A stretch of DNA of 64,000 bases from Microbacterium fluvii. Lineage in GTDB: Bacteria; Actinomycetota; Actinomycetes; Actinomycetales; Microbacteriaceae. Shown here in pieces: positions 5,098-61,579 of the stretch; within the stretch, counting starts at the first letter, position 1, and the number at the start of each line of letters is the position of its first letter. Below the pieces are notes generated by a model, which was not told where the DNA came from, ran no database searches, and saw only the letters and a program-made list of their open reading frames with translations. A program made the translations under genes and the position numbers. Location: contig NZ_JAOPFX010000002.1 in assembly GCF_025515205.1 (NCBI RefSeq), forward strand, positions 310,001 to 374,000, in the 5' to 3' direction.

Positions 5098-5161
5098 ATT
5101 CGGTCGTCACATATGGCGACCTCGAATGACAGTTCGGTCGCCGTTTACGACGACTGAACGG
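5098..5161. repeat. Palindromic repeat family B, copy 1
   Basis: A 64-base imperfect palindrome with left arm GGTCGTCACATATGGCGAC and right arm GTCGCCGTTTACGACGACTG. About 17 of 22 arm positions pair, the outer GTCGTC and inner GGCGAC being perfect. It lies between two convergent genes (the enoyl-CoA hydratase and the alcohol dehydrogenase fusion), where a hairpin could serve as a bidirectional terminator, although there is no T tract. Copies with the same arms are at 5183-5245, 23326-23382 and 23410-23466. Confidence 0.85.
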
Positions 5162-5182
5162 AGGGGGTGGATGCTGCGCGGG

Positions 5183-5245
5183 CTTCGGTCGTCACGTATG
5201 GCGACCTTGAGGGGCTTCGGGTCGCCGTTTGTGACGACTGAACGG
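5183..5245. repeat. Palindromic repeat family B, copy 2
   Basis: The second family B palindrome, in direct orientation 85 bases after copy 1 and with a different loop: left arm GGTCGTCACGTATGGCGACC, right arm GTCGCCGTTTGTGACGACTG. Both arms differ from copy 1 at a few positions that tend to keep pairing (for example GTGACGAC opposite GTCGTCAC), which suggests selection for the hairpin. Confidence 0.85.
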
Positions 5246-11614: not shown

Positions 11615-11681
11615 GGCTTGCGCGGAAGTTTTTCGAATCCCCGTTAGAATGAGGCCCGCGGGGCGAATCGCTTCACCCCCA

Positions 11682-11748
11682 CCCCGCAAGTTGGCAGTTG
11701 TGGTCGCTCGCGTGCGGGTCGAACCGGCAGAAGGTGCCAAGTTGCGGG
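11682..11748. repeat. Palindromic repeat family C, copy 1
   Basis: A 67-base imperfect palindrome upstream of the TetR gene, with outer arms CCCCGCAAGTTGGCA and GTGCCAAGTTGCGGG. It lies in the 5' region of the TetR gene, where a hairpin could affect its expression. Related copies are at 12402-12467, 23630-23693 and 23935-24000. Confidence 0.82.
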
Positions 11749-11779
11749 CGGGGAGCGGCGGTCGGAACGGGAGGCGCGG

Positions 11780-12388: not shown

Positions 12389-12401
12389 CCCGCTTCTCCA
12401 T

Positions 12402-12467
12402 CCCGCGACTTGGCACCTTCTGTCGCTCCAGCTCGGGGCGCAGCGGCAACAGATGCCAAGTCGCGGG
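12402..12467. repeat. Palindromic repeat family C, copy 2, between convergent genes
   Basis: A 66-base palindrome with perfect 14-base outer arms (CCCGCGACTTGGCA and TGCCAAGTCGCGGG). It fills most of the 84 bases between the convergent TetR and nitronate-monooxygenase-like genes. It could act as a bidirectional transcription barrier, though there is no T tract. It is the best-preserved family C copy in the window. Confidence 0.85.
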
Positions 12468-12472
12468 GTGGT

Positions 12473-21378: not shown

Positions 21379-22155
21379 ATGAAGATCGTCGTGCTGGTCA
21401 AAGAAGTCCCGGATACGTACGGAGATCGCAAGCTCTCGCTCGAGACGGGGCTTGCCGACCGCGAGGCGTCTGACCGGGTGCTCGACGAGATCGGCGAGCG
21501 TGCTCTCGAGGTGGCGCTGTCGTACGCCGACGCCAACGCGGGCACCGAGGTCGTCGTGGTGTCGATGACGCCGGAGGCTTCTGCGGCGACGGTGCGCAAG
21601 GGACTCGCGATGGGTGCTGCATCCGCCCTGCAGGTCGTCGACGGCGCCCTCGCCGGTGCGGATCTGTCGCTGACCGCCGAGGTGCTGGCCGCCGCGGTGC
21701 AGCGGGTCGGGTTCGACGTGGTGATCACGGGCAACCAGTCCACCGACGGGTCGGGCGGTGTGCTGCCGGCGATGCTCGCCGAGCGCCTGGGTGTGCCGCA
21801 GGCGACGGCGCTGACGTCGGTGTCTCTGACCGATTCGGCCGTGTCGGGAACGCGGGCGACCGACTTCGGGGTGGCGCAGGTCGAGGCCGCGCTGCCGGCG
21901 GTGATCTCGATCACCGAGGCGCTGCCCGATGCGCGGTTCCCGAACTTCAAGGGGATCATGGCGGCCAAGAAGAAGCCGTTCGAGACGGTGTCGCTGGCCG
22001 ACCTCGGCGTCGATGCCGAGCGCCTGGATGCGCCGCGGTCGATCATGACGGCGGTGGCCGAGAAGCCGGCGCGCGGCGCGGGCGTGAAGATCGTCGACGA
22101 GGGCGATGCGGGCGACAAGCTCGCCGCCTTCCTGATCGAGAACCGACTGGCGTAA
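21379..22155 (+). CDS. etfB: Electron transfer flavoprotein, beta subunit
   Basis: 258 residues, the standard length, with the AMP-binding fold of EtfB. It begins MKIVVLVKEVPDTYGDRKL and contains GNQSTDGSGGVLPAMLAE and the C-terminal helix ending KLAAFLIENRLA. With EtfA it forms the soluble FAD/AMP heterodimer that takes electrons from acyl-CoA dehydrogenases. Two ACAD genes lie within 5 kb upstream. etfA follows after 6 bases. Confidence 0.96.
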   Translation: MKIVVLVKEVPDTYGDRKLSLETGLADREASDRVLDEIGERALEVALSYADANAGTEVVVVSMTPEASAATVRKGLAMGAASALQVVDGALAGADLSLTAEVLAAAVQRVGFDVVITGNQSTDGSGGVLPAMLAERLGVPQATALTSVSLTDSAVSGTRATDFGVAQVEAALPAVISITEALPDARFPNFKGIMAAKKKPFETVSLADLGVDAERLDAPRSIMTAVAEKPARGAGVKIVDEGDAGDKLAAFLIENRLA

Positions 22156-22161
22156 GGGGTC

Positions 22162-23154
22162 ATGGCGATGGGTTTTGCTGCAGATGCGGTTCTCGTTCTT
22201 CTCGAGGTGACCCCCGGGGGCGAGCTGGCGAAGTCGTCGGCCGGGCTGCTGGGCGCCGCCGCATCGGTCGGGTCGCCGGTGGCTCTGGTTGTGGCCGGCG
22301 AGGCGCGGCATGAGGCGCTGGCGGCGGATGCTGCCGCCCTCGGCGCCGCCTCGGTGCTGGTGGCGGGCCTGGGAGGCGCCGACACGGCGCTGACGGTGCC
22401 GCTGGTCGACGCACTGTCGGCGGCGCACGCGCTGGTGGCGCCGGATGCGGTTCTGATCTCGAACTCGATCGAGGGCCGCGATGTCGCCGGCCGGTTCGCG
22501 GCGCGTGCGGGGCTCGGGATCGCGGTGGATGCGGTGGGTGTGATCCGCGACGACCTCGGCGTGCTGGCGCAGCACTCCGTCTACGGCGGCGCGTACAACG
22601 TGGAATCCTCGGTGACGTTCGGGGCCCCGGTGATCACGATGCGTCAGGGTGCGATCGAGGCGCGGGCCGACGCGCAGCCGGTGGTGTCGCAGGTGCTGGA
22701 GGTGGCGGCATCCGGGGCGCCTGCCGCGACGATCGTGTCGTTCGACGAGGCCGTCGCGACGTCGTCCCGGCCCGAGCTGCGCGGTGCGGCGAAGGTCGTC
22801 TCGGGCGGGCGAGGCCTCGGCTCGGAGGAGAAGTTCGACCTCGTCGGGCAGCTCGCCGACGCGCTGGGCGCCGCGGTGGGCGCGTCGCGCGCGGCGGTCG
22901 ACGCCGGCTACATCCCGTACGCGCACCAGGTCGGACAGACCGGGGTATCGGTGTCGCCGCAGCTGTATGTCGCGCTCGGCATCAGCGGTGCGATCCAGCA
23001 CAAGGCGGGCATGCAGACGGCGAAGACGATCGTCGCGATCAACAAAGACGCCGAGGCCCCGATCTTCGAGATCGCCGACTTCGGCGTCGTCGGAGACCTG
23101 TTCACCGTCGTACCGCAGCTGATCGCGGCGCTCGAGGCGAAGAAGAAGGCCTGA
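22162..23154 (+). CDS. etfA: Electron transfer flavoprotein, alpha subunit
   Basis: 330 residues. The conserved FAD-binding C-terminal domain is complete: [13 protein letters not shown], then [20 protein letters not shown] and the signature [17 protein letters not shown]. It carries the redox FAD of ETF. A second in-frame ATG two codons in may be the true start. The next gene, a membrane b-type cytochrome, starts 3 bases after the stop, which is unusual and suggests an electron route from ETF to the membrane. Confidence 0.96.
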
Positions 23155-23157
23155 CCT

Positions 23158-25011
23158 GTGGCGACCTACGGTTCCGCGCTGCGCCGCGGGCTGCCCCGCG
23201 TCGCCGCCGGCGACCCCTGGCCGCCGGCAGGCGTCGCGCCGGTCGCTGCCCAGTCGTCATCTTCTGCGGCCGCGGAGGCAGCCGAGTCGCACTATAGGGC
23301 GACCGACGCCGCGGTGCCGGCGGCTCAGTCGTCACAGATGGCGACCGCGGATGCTGCGGAGTCGCCGTTTACGACGACTGAAGCGAGCGTGCCGGCTGGT
23401 CCCTCGGTTCAGTCGTCACAGATGGCGACCGCGGATGCTGCGGAGTCGCCGTTTACGACGACTGAAGCGGCAGCCGCTGCTCCCGTGACCGTGCGTCGTG
23501 GGCTGCCCCGGGTGCCCGGCGGCGAGCCGTGGCCGCCCGCGTCGTTCGCGGCGGTCGGGGCGGCAGCATCCGCATCTGTCTCCGCAGCCGATCCGCCCGC
23601 TGCCGTCGCAGCTTCCGCTCCCGACACCTCCCGCGACATGGCGGCTTCGGTCGTTGCGGACGCCGCGCAGCGACGGGAGGTGCCATATCGCGGTGCCGAT
23701 GGCGAGCCACAGGCGGCGGATGCTGCCGACGCTCCCGCGGTGCGCCGCGGGCTTCCGCGGGTGGCCGGTGGCGAGCCGTGGCCTCCGGCGGAGTTCACCG
23801 CGCGGCGGCCAGGTGCGGCAGCATCCGCCGTCGCATCGACTGTCGTCGCAGGGACCGAGACCACTTCCGCCGCCCAGACCACCGCTCCGGCCGCGCCCGC
23901 AGCACCCGCCGCAGCACCCGCCGCCCCCCAAACGCCCGCGGAGTTGGCAGGTTCGGTCGCCGCTGAGGCCGCGCAGCGGCAGGAGGTGTCAACTCGCGAG
24001 ACCGAGACGACGGCCGTCGCGACCGTGCGCGAGCCGCTGCCGTTCACGCCCACGGTGTGGGCGGGCGCGAACGCGTTCACACGCCCCGCACCCAAGCCCG
24101 AGCCGAGGCGCATCGGCCCGTTCACGCGCCTGCAGTGGGCGGGCGCAGTCATCATCGGCGGCGCCGGGATGCTGTTCGCCGCGGCGATGGTGGTGTTCTT
24201 CGTCCGCTGGTTCATCTCGCTGGAGTTCATGCAGGACTTCCTGACGACCTACCCCGGCGAGTACCACCTTCCCGAGACGGCTCCGGTGGGGCTTCCCGCG
24301 TGGATCGGCTGGCAGCACTTCTTCAACGTGTTCCTGATGGTGCTGATCATCCGCAGCGGCCTGCAGGTGCGGAACGAGAAGCGCCCGTCGGTGTTCTGGG
24401 CGCCCAAGAAAGACCCCAAGGGCAAGATCAGCCTCGCGCTGTGGTTCCACCAGGGCCTCGACATCCTGTGGCTGGTCAACGGGGTCGTGTTCGTGGCGCT
24501 GCTGTTCGTCACGGGGCAGTGGATGCGGATCGTCCCCACCAGCTGGGAGGTCTTCCCCAACGCGATCAGCGCCGCCCTGCAGTACGTGTCGCTGGACTGG
24601 CCCACCGAGAACGGCTGGGTCAACTACAACTCGCTGCAGCAGCTCGCCTACTTCACGACCGTGTTCATCGCGGCGCCGCTGGCCGCGATCACCGGCTACC
24701 GCATGACGAAGATGTGGCCGAAGAACGCCAAGACGCTCAGCCGCATCTATCCGGTCGAGTGGGCGCGGGCCGTGCACTTCCCGGTGATGATCTTCTTCGT
24801 GCTGTTCATCATCGTGCACGTCACGCTCGTGTTCGCCACGGGTGCCCTGCGCAACCTCAACCACATGTACGGCGCGCAGGATGCGGTCAATTGGACCGGA
24901 TTCTGGATCTTCGCCGCATCCATGCTGGTGATCGCGGGCGGCTGGGTCGCGGCGCGCCCGCTCGTGCTCGCCCCCATCGCCCGCCTGTTCGGAAACGTCA
25001 GCGGTCGCTGA
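23158..25011 (+). CDS. Membrane b-type cytochrome with a long repetitive N-terminus carrying palindromic repeats
   Basis: 617 residues. Residues 1-300 are Ala/Pro-rich and probably disordered. They carry a motif RRGLPRVxGGEPWPP near 8, 112 and 195, with a degenerate form near 290. Between these are in-frame translations of family B palindromes ([19 protein letters not shown], twice) and family C palindromes ([30 protein letters not shown]). The C-terminal 310 residues have about six membrane helices, with candidate haem histidines in WQHFFN, WFHQGLD, VHFPVM and IVHVTLV, as in the cytochrome b561 / formate dehydrogenase gamma group. It starts at GTG 3 bases after etfA, so it may pass electrons between ETF and the quinone pool (inference). 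Confidence 0.82.
23326..23466. repeat. Two near-identical family B palindromes in frame inside the cytochrome gene
   Basis: Units at 23326-23382 and 23410-23466 are direct repeats with an 84-base period. Each runs from CAGTCGTCACAGATGGCGAC to GTCGCCGTTTACGACGACTG. The period is a multiple of three and both copies are open in the translated frame. A degraded third copy may precede them (23251-23304). The intergenic copies are at 5098-5161 and 5183-5245. Confidence 0.88.
23630..23693. repeat. Family C palindrome in frame inside the cytochrome gene, copy 3
   Basis: The outer arms CCCGCGACATGGC and GTGCCATATCGCGG correspond to the intergenic family C elements at 11682 and 12402, with a variant loop. 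It encodes [20 protein letters not shown] in the cytochrome N-terminus. Confidence 0.78.
23935..24000. repeat. Family C palindrome in frame inside the cytochrome gene, copy 4
   Basis: The arms GCGGAGTTGGCAGG and GAGGTGTCAACTCGCGA pair imperfectly. The translated stretch [18 protein letters not shown] is clearly related to copy 3, so the two copies share ancestry at DNA level in the same reading frame. Confidence 0.75.
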
Positions 25012-25028: not shown

Positions 25029-25095
25029 CCGAAACCCACCTCCCAGACCGAGACCGCGCCCGCAGGGGTGGGTTTCGCTCTGAAAGTTGGGTTTC
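25029..25095. terminator. Hairpin E downstream of the cytochrome gene
   Basis: Perfect 10-base arms GAAACCCACC (25031-25040) and GGTGGGTTTC (25067-25076) enclose a 26-base loop, and a third partial arm GTTGGGTTTC follows at 25086-25095. It begins about 20 bases after the stop of the etf-cytochrome operon, so it probably marks the mRNA end. There is no strong T tract. Confidence 0.55.
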
Positions 25096-25224
25096 GCGGA
25101 TGCGGGGCGCACATGCACCGGGGCGGGCGTCGGCGGATGCGGGGGTCGGCCGGGGGATAACCCCACCGCAATCGTCCGGCCACCCCCGAGGCGCGGCGGC
25201 GGCCCCGCGGCCTACCGTGGGGGC

Positions 25225-30170: not shown

Positions 30171-33100
30171 ATGGCGAGCGCAGAACGCACCCCCCACCCG
30201 AACGATCTCGCCGACAGCGCGGTCGCGCTCGCGCGGGTGTGGGTGGGCGAGAGCGCAGAGGTGGCCGCCGATGCGGCCGCGCAGCGCCTGGCCGGAGTGC
30301 TGAAAGACCCCAACGGGCTGCCCTTCACGATCGGGTTCGTCGACGGCGTCATGCGGCCGGAGAGCTTATCGGCGGCGGCCTCCCGGCTGCACCGGGTCGC
30401 CGACCTCGTGCCTGGGTTCCTTCCCTGGTACCTGCGAGGCGCCGTGCGTGCGGGCGGCGCGATCGCGCCGGTGCTGCCGACACCCACCGTGCCGATCGCG
30501 CGGCGCGTGCTGCGCGAGATGGTCGGGCACCTCGTGGTCGACGCCCGCCCCGACAGGCTCGGACCGGCCATCGCTGCACTGCGGGCAGACGGCGCCCAGC
30601 TGAACCTGAACCTGCTGGGCGAGGCCGTGCTCGGCGAGGGCGAGGCACGGCGCCGACTCGAGGGCATCCACGACCTCATCCGTCGCGACGACGTCGACTA
30701 CGTGTCGGTGAAGGTCTCGGCCATCGCCTCCCATATCTCGATGTGGGCGTTCGACGAGACCGTCGACACCGTCGTCGAGCGGCTGCTGCCGCTGTATCTG
30801 ACCGCGGCCGGGCAGCCTCTGCCGACCTTCATCAACCTCGACATGGAGGAGTACCGCGACCTCGACCTGACGATCGCCGTCTTCACTCGCCTCCTCGAAG
30901 ACCCCCGGCTGCAGCAGCTCGAGGCGGGCATCGTGCTGCAGGCCTATCTTCCCGACGCGCTGCCGGCGCTGCAGCAGCTCACCGCCTGGGCGCAGCAGCG
31001 CGTCGGCGCGGGGGGAGCGCGCATCAAGGTGCGCCTGGTCAAGGGTGCGAACCTCGCCATGGAGACGGTGGATGCGGTCATGCACGGGTGGCCGGCGGCG
31101 CCCTACGCGACCAAGCTCGACACCGACGCCAACTACCTGCGGTGCCTCGATTTCGCGCTGGATGCCGGGCGCACCGCGGCGGTGCGACTCGGGGTCGCAG
31201 GGCACAACCTCTTCGACGTCGCCTATGCGTGGCTGCTGGCGGGGCTGCGCGGCGTGCGCGACGACATCGAGTTCGAGATGCTGCTGGGCATGGCCCAGGG
31301 CCAGGTCGCGGCGGTGCGCCGGGAGGTGGGCTCGGTGCTGCTGTACGTGCCGGTGGTGCGCCCCGACGAGTTCGACGTCGCGATCAGCTACCTCGTGCGG
31401 CGGCTGGAGGAGAACGCGTCTGACGAGAACTTCCTCTCCGCCGCGTTCGACCTCGTCGACGAGCCCGCGCTGTTCGACCGCGAGCGCGATCGCTTTCTCG
31501 CGTCGGTCGGGCGCGCCGCCGACCCGGCGCTGGAGCTCGGTCCGAACCGCACGCAGGACCGCTCGTCCGATCAGGCGTCGGGCCCCGGTCGCGCCGAGAC
31601 GAGAGCACTGCGCGCTCCGGCAGCGGCCGATGCCGACCTCACGCAGGCGGTGCTCGAGATCGCGCGAGGGTCGACCGTCGATCCGTCCGAGACCGTGCCG
31701 ATCGCCCCCGTCTCCGACGCACAGCTGTTCGGCGGCGTCGCCTTCGTCGAGACGGCGGTGTTCGCCCCCCGTGAAGACGACCTGCAGGCGCAGGGCGCCC
31801 CCGGGTTCCGCAACGCCGCCGACACCGACCCGGCGCTGCCGGCCAACCGCGCGTGGGCCCGTCAGGTGCTCGAGCGCATCGACGACTCGCGACTCGGCGA
31901 GGCGACAATCGCCGCATCCGTCGTCGACGACAGGCGCACTCTCGAGGCGATCATCGCGCGTGTGCGGGATGCCGGGGCCGCCTGGGGCGCGAAGCCTGCG
32001 GCCGAGCGCTCGGCCGTGCTGGCCGCCGCCGCCCGCGTGTTGGAGGCGCACCGTGCCGACCTCATCGAGGTGGCCGCCGCCGAGACCGGCAAGGTGTTCG
32101 CCGAAGCCGACGTCGAAGTGAGCGAAGCGGTCGACTTCGCCGCCTATTACGCGGCGACCGCCAGGGAGCTCGACCGCGTCAGCGGCGCGGTGTTCGAGCC
32201 GGCGCGGCTGACGGTCGTGGCACCGCCGTGGAACTTCCCCGTGGCGATCCCGGCCGGCGGCGTGCTGGCGGCGCTCGCGGCCGGCTCCGGCGTCGTGTTC
32301 AAGCCGGCCCCTCAGGCCAGGCGCTGCGCCGCCGTGGTCGCCGAGGCGCTGTGGGAGGCGGGGGTGCCCCGAGACGTGCTGGCCCTCGTCGACCTCGACG
32401 AAGACGCCCTCGGCGCGGCGCTGCTCGCCCACCCCGGCGTCGACAGGGTGATTCTGACGGGCTCGTGGGAGACGGCGGCGCTCTTCCGCTCGTGGCGGCC
32501 CGAACTGCCCCTGCTGGCCGAGACCAGCGGCAAGAACGCCATCGTCATCACGCCCTCCGCCGACCTGGATCTTGCGGCATCCGACCTCGTCAAGAGCGCC
32601 TTCGGCCACGCCGGACAGAAGTGCTCGGCGGCGTCTCTGGCGATCCTGGTCGGGTCGGTCGGGCGCTCGAAGCGGTTCGCGCGGCAGTTGCAGGACGCCG
32701 TGCGATCGCTGCGCATCGGGCCGCCCTCTGCAGCGACGAGCGAGGTGGGGCCCGTGATCGAGCAGCCCACCGGCAAACTGGCGTGGGCGCTGACCACCCT
32801 CGACGACGGCGAGCAGTGGCTGGTCGAACCGGCCCTCCTCGACCGCGGGCGCGCAGGCGAGGGGCGGTACTGGTCGCCCGGCATCCGCGTCGGCGTGCAG
32901 CCGGGGTCGCGCTTCCACACCGAGGAGTTCTTCGGCCCCGTGCTCGGCATCATGCACGCGCACTCGCTGGCGGAGGCGATCGAGTTGCAGAACGCCGTCG
33001 CCTACGGCCTCACTGCCGGGCTGCACACGCAGAACCCCGACGAGCTGCGGCTGTGGCTCGAGCAGGTCGAGGCGGGCAACCTCTACGTCAACCGCGGCAT

Positions 33101-33884
33101 CACCGGCGCCATCGTGCAGCGCCAGCCCTTCGGCGGATGGAAGCGCTCGGCGGTCGGGCCCGGCGCCAAGGCGGGCGGACCCAACTACCTCATCGGGCTC
33201 GGCAGGTGGCGTCAGAGCGCGGGCGGTGCGCCATCGGCGACGCTCCACCTGCGCGGCCTCGACTCGCGCATCACCTCGATCATCGAATCGGCCCAGCCGA
33301 GCCTGGACTACGAGTCGTTCGAGTGGCTGCGCCGCGGTGCGCTGTCCGATGCCATCGCGTGGGACAGGGAGTTCGGCCGGGTCAAAGACGTGTCGCGGCT
33401 CGGCGTCGAGCGCAACCTCTTCCGCTATCGGCCGGTGCCGCTGGTCGAGGTGCGCGCGACCGGCGATGCACGGTGGCACGAGCTGCTGCGCGTCGTCGTG
33501 GCGGGGGTGCGCTCGGGTGCGCCCTTCGTGCTGAGCGTTCCCGTGGGGCTTCCGGCCGAAGTGCGCAGGGCCCTCGGTGAGCAGCAGATCCCGGTGTTCG
33601 TCGAGACCGACGCCGAGTTCGCCGAGCGCCTGGCTGCGCCGCACGACGAGACCGGTGCCCCCGAGGCCGCGCGCGTGCGTCTCGTCGGGGCCTCCGCATC
33701 CGTCGCCGCGGCCCATCGCGCGCTCGCCGAGGCGGTCGCCGGCAACCCCGACATCGCCGTGTACGACAACGAGGTGACCACGGCGGGGCGACTGGAGCTG
33801 CTGCCGTTCCTGCGCGAGCAGGCGATCGCGATCACGGCCCACCGGTTCGGCAACCCCGACCCCTGGTCGCAGGCCGTCATCTGA
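30171..33884 (+). CDS. putA: Bifunctional proline dehydrogenase / glutamate-semialdehyde dehydrogenase
   Basis: 1237 residues. The FAD-dependent proline dehydrogenase barrel occupies about 60-440, with the signature YLVRRLEENASDENFL. The P5C dehydrogenase of the ALDH superfamily is at about 530-1020, with Glu in LLAETSGKNAIV and Cys818 in FGHAGQKCSAASL. A C-terminal extension of about 200 residues follows. No ribbon-helix-helix DNA-binding domain is present, so this is a purely catalytic PutA. It converts proline, or P5C made by RocD from ornithine, to glutamate. The ATG lies 6 bases after TACTCT (30159-30164), so a leaderless mRNA is likely. Confidence 0.95.
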   Translation: MASAERTPHPNDLADSAVALARVWVGESAEVAADAAAQRLAGVLKDPNGLPFTIGFVDGVMRPESLSAAASRLHRVADLVPGFLPWYLRGAVRAGGAIAPVLPTPTVPIARRVLREMVGHLVVDARPDRLGPAIAALRADGAQLNLNLLGEAVLGEGEARRRLEGIHDLIRRDDVDYVSVKVSAIASHISMWAFDETVDTVVERLLPLYLTAAGQPLPTFINLDMEEYRDLDLTIAVFTRLLEDPRLQQLEAGIVLQAYLPDALPALQQLTAWAQQRVGAGGARIKVRLVKGANLAMETVDAVMHGWPAAPYATKLDTDANYLRCLDFALDAGRTAAVRLGVAGHNLFDVAYAWLLAGLRGVRDDIEFEMLLGMAQGQVAAVRREVGSVLLYVPVVRPDEFDVAISYLVRRLEENASDENFLSAAFDLVDEPALFDRERDRFLASVGRAADPALELGPNRTQDRSSDQASGPGRAETRALRAPAAADADLTQAVLEIARGSTVDPSETVPIAPVSDAQLFGGVAFVETAVFAPREDDLQAQGAPGFRNAADTDPALPANRAWARQVLERIDDSRLGEATIAASVVDDRRTLEAIIARVRDAGAAWGAKPAAERSAVLAAAARVLEAHRADLIEVAAAETGKVFAEADVEVSEAVDFAAYYAATARELDRVSGAVFEPARLTVVAPPWNFPVAIPAGGVLAALAAGSGVVFKPAPQARRCAAVVAEALWEAGVPRDVLALVDLDEDALGAALLAHPGVDRVILTGSWETAALFRSWRPELPLLAETSGKNAIVITPSADLDLAASDLVKSAFGHAGQKCSAASLAILVGSVGRSKRFARQLQDAVRSLRIGPPSAATSEVGPVIEQPTGKLAWALTTLDDGEQWLVEPALLDRGRAGEGRYWSPGIRVGVQPGSRFHTEEFFGPVLGIMHAHSLAEAIELQNAVAYGLTAGLHTQNPDELRLWLEQVEAGNLYVNRGITGAIVQRQPFGGWKRSAVGPGAKAGGPNYLIGLGRWRQSAGGAPSATLHLRGLDSRITSIIESAQPSLDYESFEWLRRGALSDAIAWDREFGRVKDVSRLGVERNLFRYRPVPLVEVRATGDARWHELLRVVVAGVRSGAPFVLSVPVGLPAEVRRALGEQQIPVFVETDAEFAERLAAPHDETGAPEAARVRLVGASASVAAAHRALAEAVAGNPDIAVYDNEVTTAGRLELLPFLREQAIAITAHRFGNPDPWSQAVI

Positions 33885-47225: not shown

Positions 47226-47289
47226 CCGGTTACGGTCGCGACGCGCCGCGCGTGGCCGCGGCCGTACGGCGCGTCCCGTCCGTAAGCGG
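47226..47289. repeat. Palindromic repeat family D, copy 1
   Basis: The 23-base arms match at 20 positions: left CCGGTTACGGTCGCGACGCG, right GCGTCCCGTCCGTAAGCGG. It lies between rhaEW and rhaB within the rhamnose operon, almost filling the 91-base gap. The only other copy in the window is at 61496-61560. Confidence 0.85.
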
Positions 47290-61487: not shown

Positions 61488-61495
61488 CCCCCACT

Positions 61496-61560
61496 CCGAT
61501 TACGGTCACGACGCGCCGTGCGTGCGACGCGTGCACACGGCGTGTCGCGTCCGTAAGCGG
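61496..61560. repeat. Palindromic repeat family D, copy 2
   Basis: The arms CCGATTACGGTCACGACGCG and GTGTCGCGTCCGTAAGCGG pair with few mismatches and resemble the copy at 47226-47289, 14 kb away. It lies between the methyltransferase and the F420-type oxidoreductase, both on the plus strand, and may separate their transcripts. Confidence 0.85.
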
Positions 61561-61579
61561 GATGGGGGATGCTGGGGGC

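Follow-up and report, generated by a model that had tools for sequence, protein, structure and literature searches.

How does a single protein-coding gene come to hold, within one reading frame, palindromic repeats of the kinds that lie between genes elsewhere in the same genome? The question arises from a cytochrome gene of Microbacterium fluvii, contained in a 64,000-nucleotide stretch of DNA that is referred to here as the window. The answer is probably that lineage-specific palindromes insert widely and, within genes, are kept only where they lie in frame inside disordered linkers or loops. The host gene and its neighbors are arranged as follows.

21379..22155, + strand: etfB (PF01012), upstream of the cytochrome gene and in the same orientation
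22162..23154, + strand: etfA (PF00766, PF01012), ending 3 nt before the cytochrome start codon
23158..25011, + strand: cytochrome ORF, GTG start, 617 amino acids, with a predicted disordered N-terminal half and a cytochrome b561-type membrane domain
23182..23226, + strand: motif 1 (15 residues), residues 9-23
23494..23538, + strand: motif 2 (15 residues), residues 113-127
23743..23787, + strand: motif 3 (15 residues), residues 196-210
24115..25008, + strand: helical membrane domain, residues 320-617, with pLDDT of 55-92 in 10-residue blocks after residue 310

The membrane domain is recognized by PF01292 at residues 387-570 (E 8.8e-9). No convincing match to it was found among PDB sequences (best E 0.47), and the cytochrome matched no NCBIfam family. 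The three copies of the RRGLPRxxGGEPWPP motif reported in the preliminary description are indeed present, all within the N-terminal half of ~300 residues, and the MATYG/VATYG..RRGLPR start recurs in several orthologs. GC3 is 0.77 in the N-terminal region vs 0.96 in the C-terminal part of the ORF. Right after the stop codon, at 25030-25096, lies an inverted repeat (CGAAACCCACCTC...GGTTTCG), a gene-end hairpin.

The palindromes of the ORF and their intergenic counterparts in the window are these.

5100..5241, + strand: intergenic family B doublet
11680..11755, + strand: intergenic family C palindrome
12398..12471, + strand: intergenic family C palindrome, between convergent genes
23245..23307, + strand: decayed third family B unit, 44/63 identical to the intact unit, ungapped, at an offset of 75
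23286..23303, + strand: short palindrome GTCGCACTATAGGGCGAC; a similar one adjoins an intergenic B array (L200)
23325..23381, + strand: family B palindrome, copy 1, 57 nt
23409..23465, + strand: family B palindrome, copy 2, identical to copy 1
23630..23693, + strand: family C palindrome, ORF copy 1, diverged
23935..24000, + strand: family C palindrome, ORF copy 2, diverged

Copies 1 and 2 of family B, described earlier as a pair with an 84-base period, are the same over all 57 nt, loop included, and that period holds. The decayed unit upstream of them was tested separately, since an E of 6e-30 obtained for this region also counts copy 1 matching copy 2. Its local alignment score against the intact unit is 37, a value reached in 0 of 2000 codon shuffles (largest, 33). 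A block of ~180 nt in the ORF, from ~23286 to 23464, aligns in one piece to an intergenic B array at another place in the genome (L200:5037-4869; 72%, E 2.8e-15). The ends of family B (TTCAGTCGTC...GACGACTGAA) are inverted repeats, and its arms carry CGTC close to the end (TCAGTCGTC); no clear GTAG/CGTC tag was seen in family C. With up to 3 mismatches allowed, a 21-nt pattern of the B arm has 5 matches in the 64-kb window against 0 in 100 shuffles, 2 of them in the ORF and the other 3 in the intergenic pair at 5100-5241.

Family B is dispersed in the 3.33-Mb genome, occupying at least 16 further loci besides the cytochrome ORF. These 16 loci are all tandem, with two units each except for one locus with three; a doublet measures ~130-145 nt. 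The unit period is 74-75 at most of them and 82-86 at three, and the loops differ between units at all 16, unlike the identical copies in the ORF. A gene caller that relies on codons only labelled every one of the 16 as intergenic, but it labelled the cytochrome copy so as well, and a flanking-frame test was therefore added. In that test the frame of a flanking gene crosses the element at 1 of the 16 loci (L008, ambiguous) and in the cytochrome. No family B sequence was found in 22 congeneric genomes at E up to 1e-5, with the own genome as positive control. One intergenic stretch of the own genome (L200:4005-5040) has several palindrome families near one another, B among them with an array of three units or more.

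Family C is dispersed as well, with units of ~65-74 nt at no fewer than ~34 places in the genome, two of them in the window and one a 25-nt partial. The two copies claimed for the ORF, which prove to be diverged, are borne out by their alignment with both intergenic C palindromes of the window. Against genomic C sequences, the region of copy 2 gives E values of 1.9e-7 and 1.2e-6 and copy 1 gives 9.6e-5; with intergenic C as the query (E up to 0.01), neither ORF copy was among the matches listed. A gap-free palindrome scan of the window caught the C element at 12.4 kb but neither B nor the C copies of the ORF. Pattern search and alignment thus uphold the earlier statement that the palindromes of the ORF recur between genes at 5.1, 11.7 and 12.4 kb, and the genome search that it proposed places both families at dispersed sites, the copies not being chance likenesses. 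Among the congeners, 1 of 22 has a C match, a 36-nt partial (E up to 1e-5, own genome as positive control). By gene calls from the same codon-only caller, nineteen of the 27 distinct C loci checked lie between convergent genes, mostly ~50 nt or less from a stop codon, and the flanking-frame test of the 27 left 2 ambiguous. Nearly every copy of the two families is intergenic, and the cytochrome is the one known ORF carrier of B and C, with L008, L173 and L193 ambiguous.

Relatives of the cytochrome occur in each of the 22 congeneric genomes searched, and 80 loci out of 475 confirmed relatives were kept as the ortholog set. Seventy of these are complete at the 5' end and carry two or more motifs (three in 56, four in 5 and two in 9). 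Of the ten excluded loci, 8 are truncated by the contig start (6 of them lacking any motif and 2 having a single one), and the remaining 2 are complete and have one motif. When 31 proteins were aligned (that of the window and 30 orthologs), the invariant N-terminal columns were confined to the three motifs, although the orthologs had been picked for at least three motifs and the conservation of RRGLPR is thus partly by choice. AlphaFold2, run on this alignment, gave residues 1-317 no helix or strand, with a helical bundle after them, and pLDDT fell below 50 across most of residues 1-289. Invariant columns in the motifs only, together with the modelled disorder, indicate that the motifs are conserved and that the linkers, which the model predicts to be disordered, are free. 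The membrane domain is conserved among the orthologs as well. The proposed alignment of orthologs therefore shows an N-terminus that differs among them between the motifs. The preliminary description had the N-terminus assembled from palindromes that alternate with the motifs; the linkers do take up palindromes, but the motifs are conserved in orthologs and are not inserted.

The linkers of the orthologs hold palindromes of other families. At least one of eight families is matched by 34 of 79 N-terminal regions, where codon-shuffled regions give 4.95 on average, and the other 45 match none of them; F3 to F8 were chosen after the linkers had been read, so the family count is not blind, and shuffling controls composition only. 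F1 (GTCGTTGAGCGA...CGAGACGAAACG) is in 17 of the 79 regions (shuffle mean 0.9), F2 (CTTCGACARGCTC) in 9 (0.2), F6 in 4 (0), F5 in 3 (0.05), F8 in 4 (1.1) and F3 in 2 (1.95). B and C are found in the window's own region only, with shuffle means of 0.05 and 0.85. By these means, F1, F2, F5, F6 and B stand on the count of regions. F3 and C are unconvincing on that count alone and rest instead on matches in the genomes, and F8 is doubtful. Significant palindromicity was detected in 22 of 71 N-terminal regions vs 5 of 70 C-terminal regions.

Several of these families recur elsewhere in the genomes that carry them in the linker. F6, a ~75-nt palindrome of one congener (G005), has 6 other places there, one a 25-nt partial, and is also present in G021 and G022; it was not found in G001, nor elsewhere in G014, which has it in the linker. 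F3, an element of M. timonense and M. ureisolvens, has matches in both genomes and one 20-nt match in the genome of L136, with none in that of L118. F5, an element of M. schleiferi, is present in the genomes of L098 and L117 and was not found elsewhere in those of L126 and L120, despite their linker copies. More generally, the N-terminal regions of 48 of 70 orthologs match the flanks of other loci, compared with 4, 4 and 6 of 70 after codon shuffling, and those of 7 of 70 match the flank of their own locus, compared with none. A C-terminal control of this search (128 matches; 14 own-flank and 6 other-flank queries) was not used, as it is probably invalid: queries as long as an N-terminal region can overrun the gene into the target flank. 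F1 occurs in four reading frames, with 14, 2, 10 and 4 cases, and the two left unused are the one with TGA and one open frame of the other strand.

Palindromes also enter other proteins. F6 lies in an open frame in two further ORFs of G005, in the frame used in the cytochrome. In L246 it falls within the C-terminal tail, and in L241 within an N-terminal stretch that a membrane segment follows. The tail of the former, an ABC-type protein (L246:786-1718), has F2-like sequence beside the F6 palindrome (LRRAQGP...VAEPVEAS). In two genomes (L286, L288), F5 is in frame, again as in the cytochrome, at the junction of what we take by recognition to be a PxpB-PxpC-like fusion. A third F5 copy precedes a protein presumed on the same grounds to be ScpA-like (L287), where in-frame upstream starts are only 2 and 17 codons away, and its place inside that ORF is unsure. 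The PxpBC-like protein of the own genome has a palindrome of its own in frame at the same junction (L198:13149-13243), related to intergenic copies at L200:4005-4134. A further host is PutA, whose homologue in the window is given below.

30171..33881, + strand: PutA homologue, with no palindrome insert in the loop that is filled in some other species

Its best NCBIfam match is the PutA model (E 2.6e-118), below the cut-off of that model. F2 sequence occupies one PutA loop in L110, L113 and L120, and in L109 with one mismatch. Among 45 aligned orthologs, 28 have no extra residues in this loop and 17 do, most of the latter lacking a recognized palindrome. An F2 half-site occurs at the same offset in an ORF that is presumably acyl-CoA dehydrogenase-like (L118:1234-2409 and L136:1283-2458), and L118 reads GALRQAQEPRKSD there.

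The preliminary description left a choice between a protein region tolerant to insertion and a palindrome that lands preferentially in such regions. Tolerance is well supported by the variable linkers, the use of several frames by one family, the inserts in other proteins and the distinct families of different species. The density of F1a half-sites goes beyond it. Linkers have 29 of them in 51 kb (0.567 per kb), intergenic DNA 27 in 155 kb (0.174), other coding DNA 5 in 1.1 Mb (0.005) and the cytochrome domain 0 in 66 kb; copies inside one gene are not independent, and the coding and intergenic labels come from the codon-only caller that had put the cytochrome B copy between genes. F2 half-sites number 5 in linkers, 3 in intergenic DNA, 6 in other coding DNA and 0 in the cytochrome domain. 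Plain tolerance does not predict a linker density of F1a above the intergenic one. The linkers might then be more than permissive, palindromes being directed to them or kept in them above the intergenic rate, with families converging on a linker that is continually rebuilt; this seems rather doubtful. The excess is compatible with preferential landing, but copies in the gene also multiply by local duplication.

The same excess, some threefold for F1a, could be read as selection on the hairpins themselves. As DNA or RNA signals within the etfB-etfA-cytochrome transcript, they would tune processing, stability or translation between ETF and the cytochrome, and the families would be interchangeable because only a hairpin is needed. 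The folding energy per nucleotide of the palindromes within the ORF is near that of the intergenic copies, and C elements sit at gene ends in the manner of terminators, both as such a role would have it. Selection is not required, however, for the intact pairing of the ORF B copies, which are identical; the 45 N-terminal regions that match no family, and the 49 of 71 that are not unusually palindromic, speak against it; and the elements also occupy loops and linkers of PutA and PxpBC-like proteins, where no such signal is expected. A role as signals is thus unlikely to explain the inserts.

A different origin would leave the elements immobile. The gene would duplicate and convert its own repeats, namely the motifs and Ala-rich codons, and its likeness to intergenic palindromes would be due to recombination with copies between genes, following a few captures long ago. 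Such an origin suits the identity of the ORF B copies beside the differing loops of all 16 intergenic loci, as well as the repeated modules that occur inside single orthologs such as L100, L114 and L134. It fits poorly with the inserts in other proteins and with the absence of B from the 22 congeners searched, by which its arrival looks recent. A quick tree built from the membrane domain, with 8 of 28 loci of the 22-genome search added (one identical to L089), shows 12 changes for F1 and 9 for F2, gains and losses not being told apart, and the 9 changes of F2 fall in 9 rows, again contrary to a few old captures. Immobility is therefore quite improbable. That the N-terminal frame is untranslated, with the protein starting near residue 300 and the palindromes in a leader, is next to impossible despite atypical codon use and a codon-based caller that excluded most of the region from the gene. 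All three motifs show conservation at the protein level, and 70 of 80 loci have a single frame that opens with a start codon ahead of the first motif and stays open across two or more motifs and on into the membrane domain; 8 of the other 10 are cut by contig ends.

The favored account, wide insertion followed by retention in disordered segments, can be set out as a sequence of steps. Palindromes of several distinct and often lineage-specific families would spread across Microbacterium genomes, presumably by transposition, and mostly settle between genes. Within genes they would rarely be retained, the combined outcome of broad insertion and selection. The N-terminal half of the cytochrome may act as a disordered tether that keeps three short motifs but not its linkers. 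Frame-preserving inserts would survive there since the linkers are not conserved, and of the targets seen here it would tolerate them best, the motifs being all that must be kept. Local duplication inside the gene would then multiply the inserts, as the identical B copies of the ORF suggest. Each species would come to show its own palindromes at this place, the M. fluvii cytochrome having taken up B and C. Judged from sequence, the inserts are probably translated and near neutral, while the motifs may bind a partner, at a guess ETF.

Comparable systems are known. The Rickettsia palindromic elements (RPE) are dispersed palindromes located between genes and in frame within protein genes, where they are tolerated, with units of 105-146 bp, according to the available part of PMC2229807 and to Ogata 2000, 2002 and 2005 as cited in it. 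The likeness of the Microbacterium elements to RPE and to the protein-coding palindromes of Wolbachia lies in dispersed palindromes that are both intergenic and in frame, as that part of the source presents them. Palindromic repeats are present here in many dispersed copies, and copies of F6, F5 and F1/F2 lie both between genes and in frame in unrelated proteins. The units differ in length, B having 57 nt in tandem, C ~65-74 nt and F6 ~75 nt, and so does the setting, which is one orthologous gene in many species with distinct families; RPE are compared here by their description. The enterobacterial RU-1, RU-2 and RU-3 (Delihas) are MITE-like repeats fused in frame to ORFs, and their units are longer, at 103, 127 and 168 bp; no acceptor gene that recurs across a genus is mentioned for them in the same portion of PMC2229807.

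The GTAG- and CGTC-tagged repetitive extragenic palindromes (REPs) of Di Nocera 2013 are intergenic, often dimeric, and lie mostly near stop codons between convergent or unidirectional genes, as far as the accessible text of PMC3733652 goes. In that text, some are intragenic, with clusters encoding 43 to 82 amino acids, and many of the intragenic targets are DNA synthesis, repair and RNA genes. The main text of PMC3733652 contains no mention of Microbacterium or Actinobacteria. Family C resembles REPs and REPINs in lying near stop codons, with its 19 of 27 convergent loci. REPs and REPINs with a RAYT differ in that the own Microbacterium genome, the one genome searched, has no Y1 transposase (PF01797; control positive in 5 of 14 genomes), and a RAYT was rejected as the mover. 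Among the open-licence papers listed in literature searches, titles and abstract openings hold nothing on Microbacterium palindromes.

The new feature is that, across a genus, a single orthologous gene serves as the sink of several distinct palindrome families. The in-frame palindromes of Rickettsia and some other genomes are cases scattered over many genes, whereas the distinct families taken up by the cytochrome gene in different Microbacterium species number seven, perhaps eight. Its motifs mark the frame, its linkers are free, and its orthologs amount to replicate natural experiments on the entry of palindromes, the frames accepted, their decay and their duplication, and the gene would record how palindromic elements become protein. 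The same gene bears on whether palindromes move without a known transposase. It also carries a warning for annotation, as codon-based gene callers can misplace the starts of such genes, which happened here.

Two minor observations concern the material itself. The records of L144, L160 and L111 are labelled Stenotrophomonas, Planococcus and Pseudarthrobacter, and their cytochromes are 77, 75 and 77% identical to that of the window; the records are possibly mislabelled or contaminated. Long palindromes of other families also lie in the window at 2045-2109, 47226-47289 and 61488-61568 (CTCGCTCAACGACCGG...; CCGGTTACGGTCGCGACGCG...).
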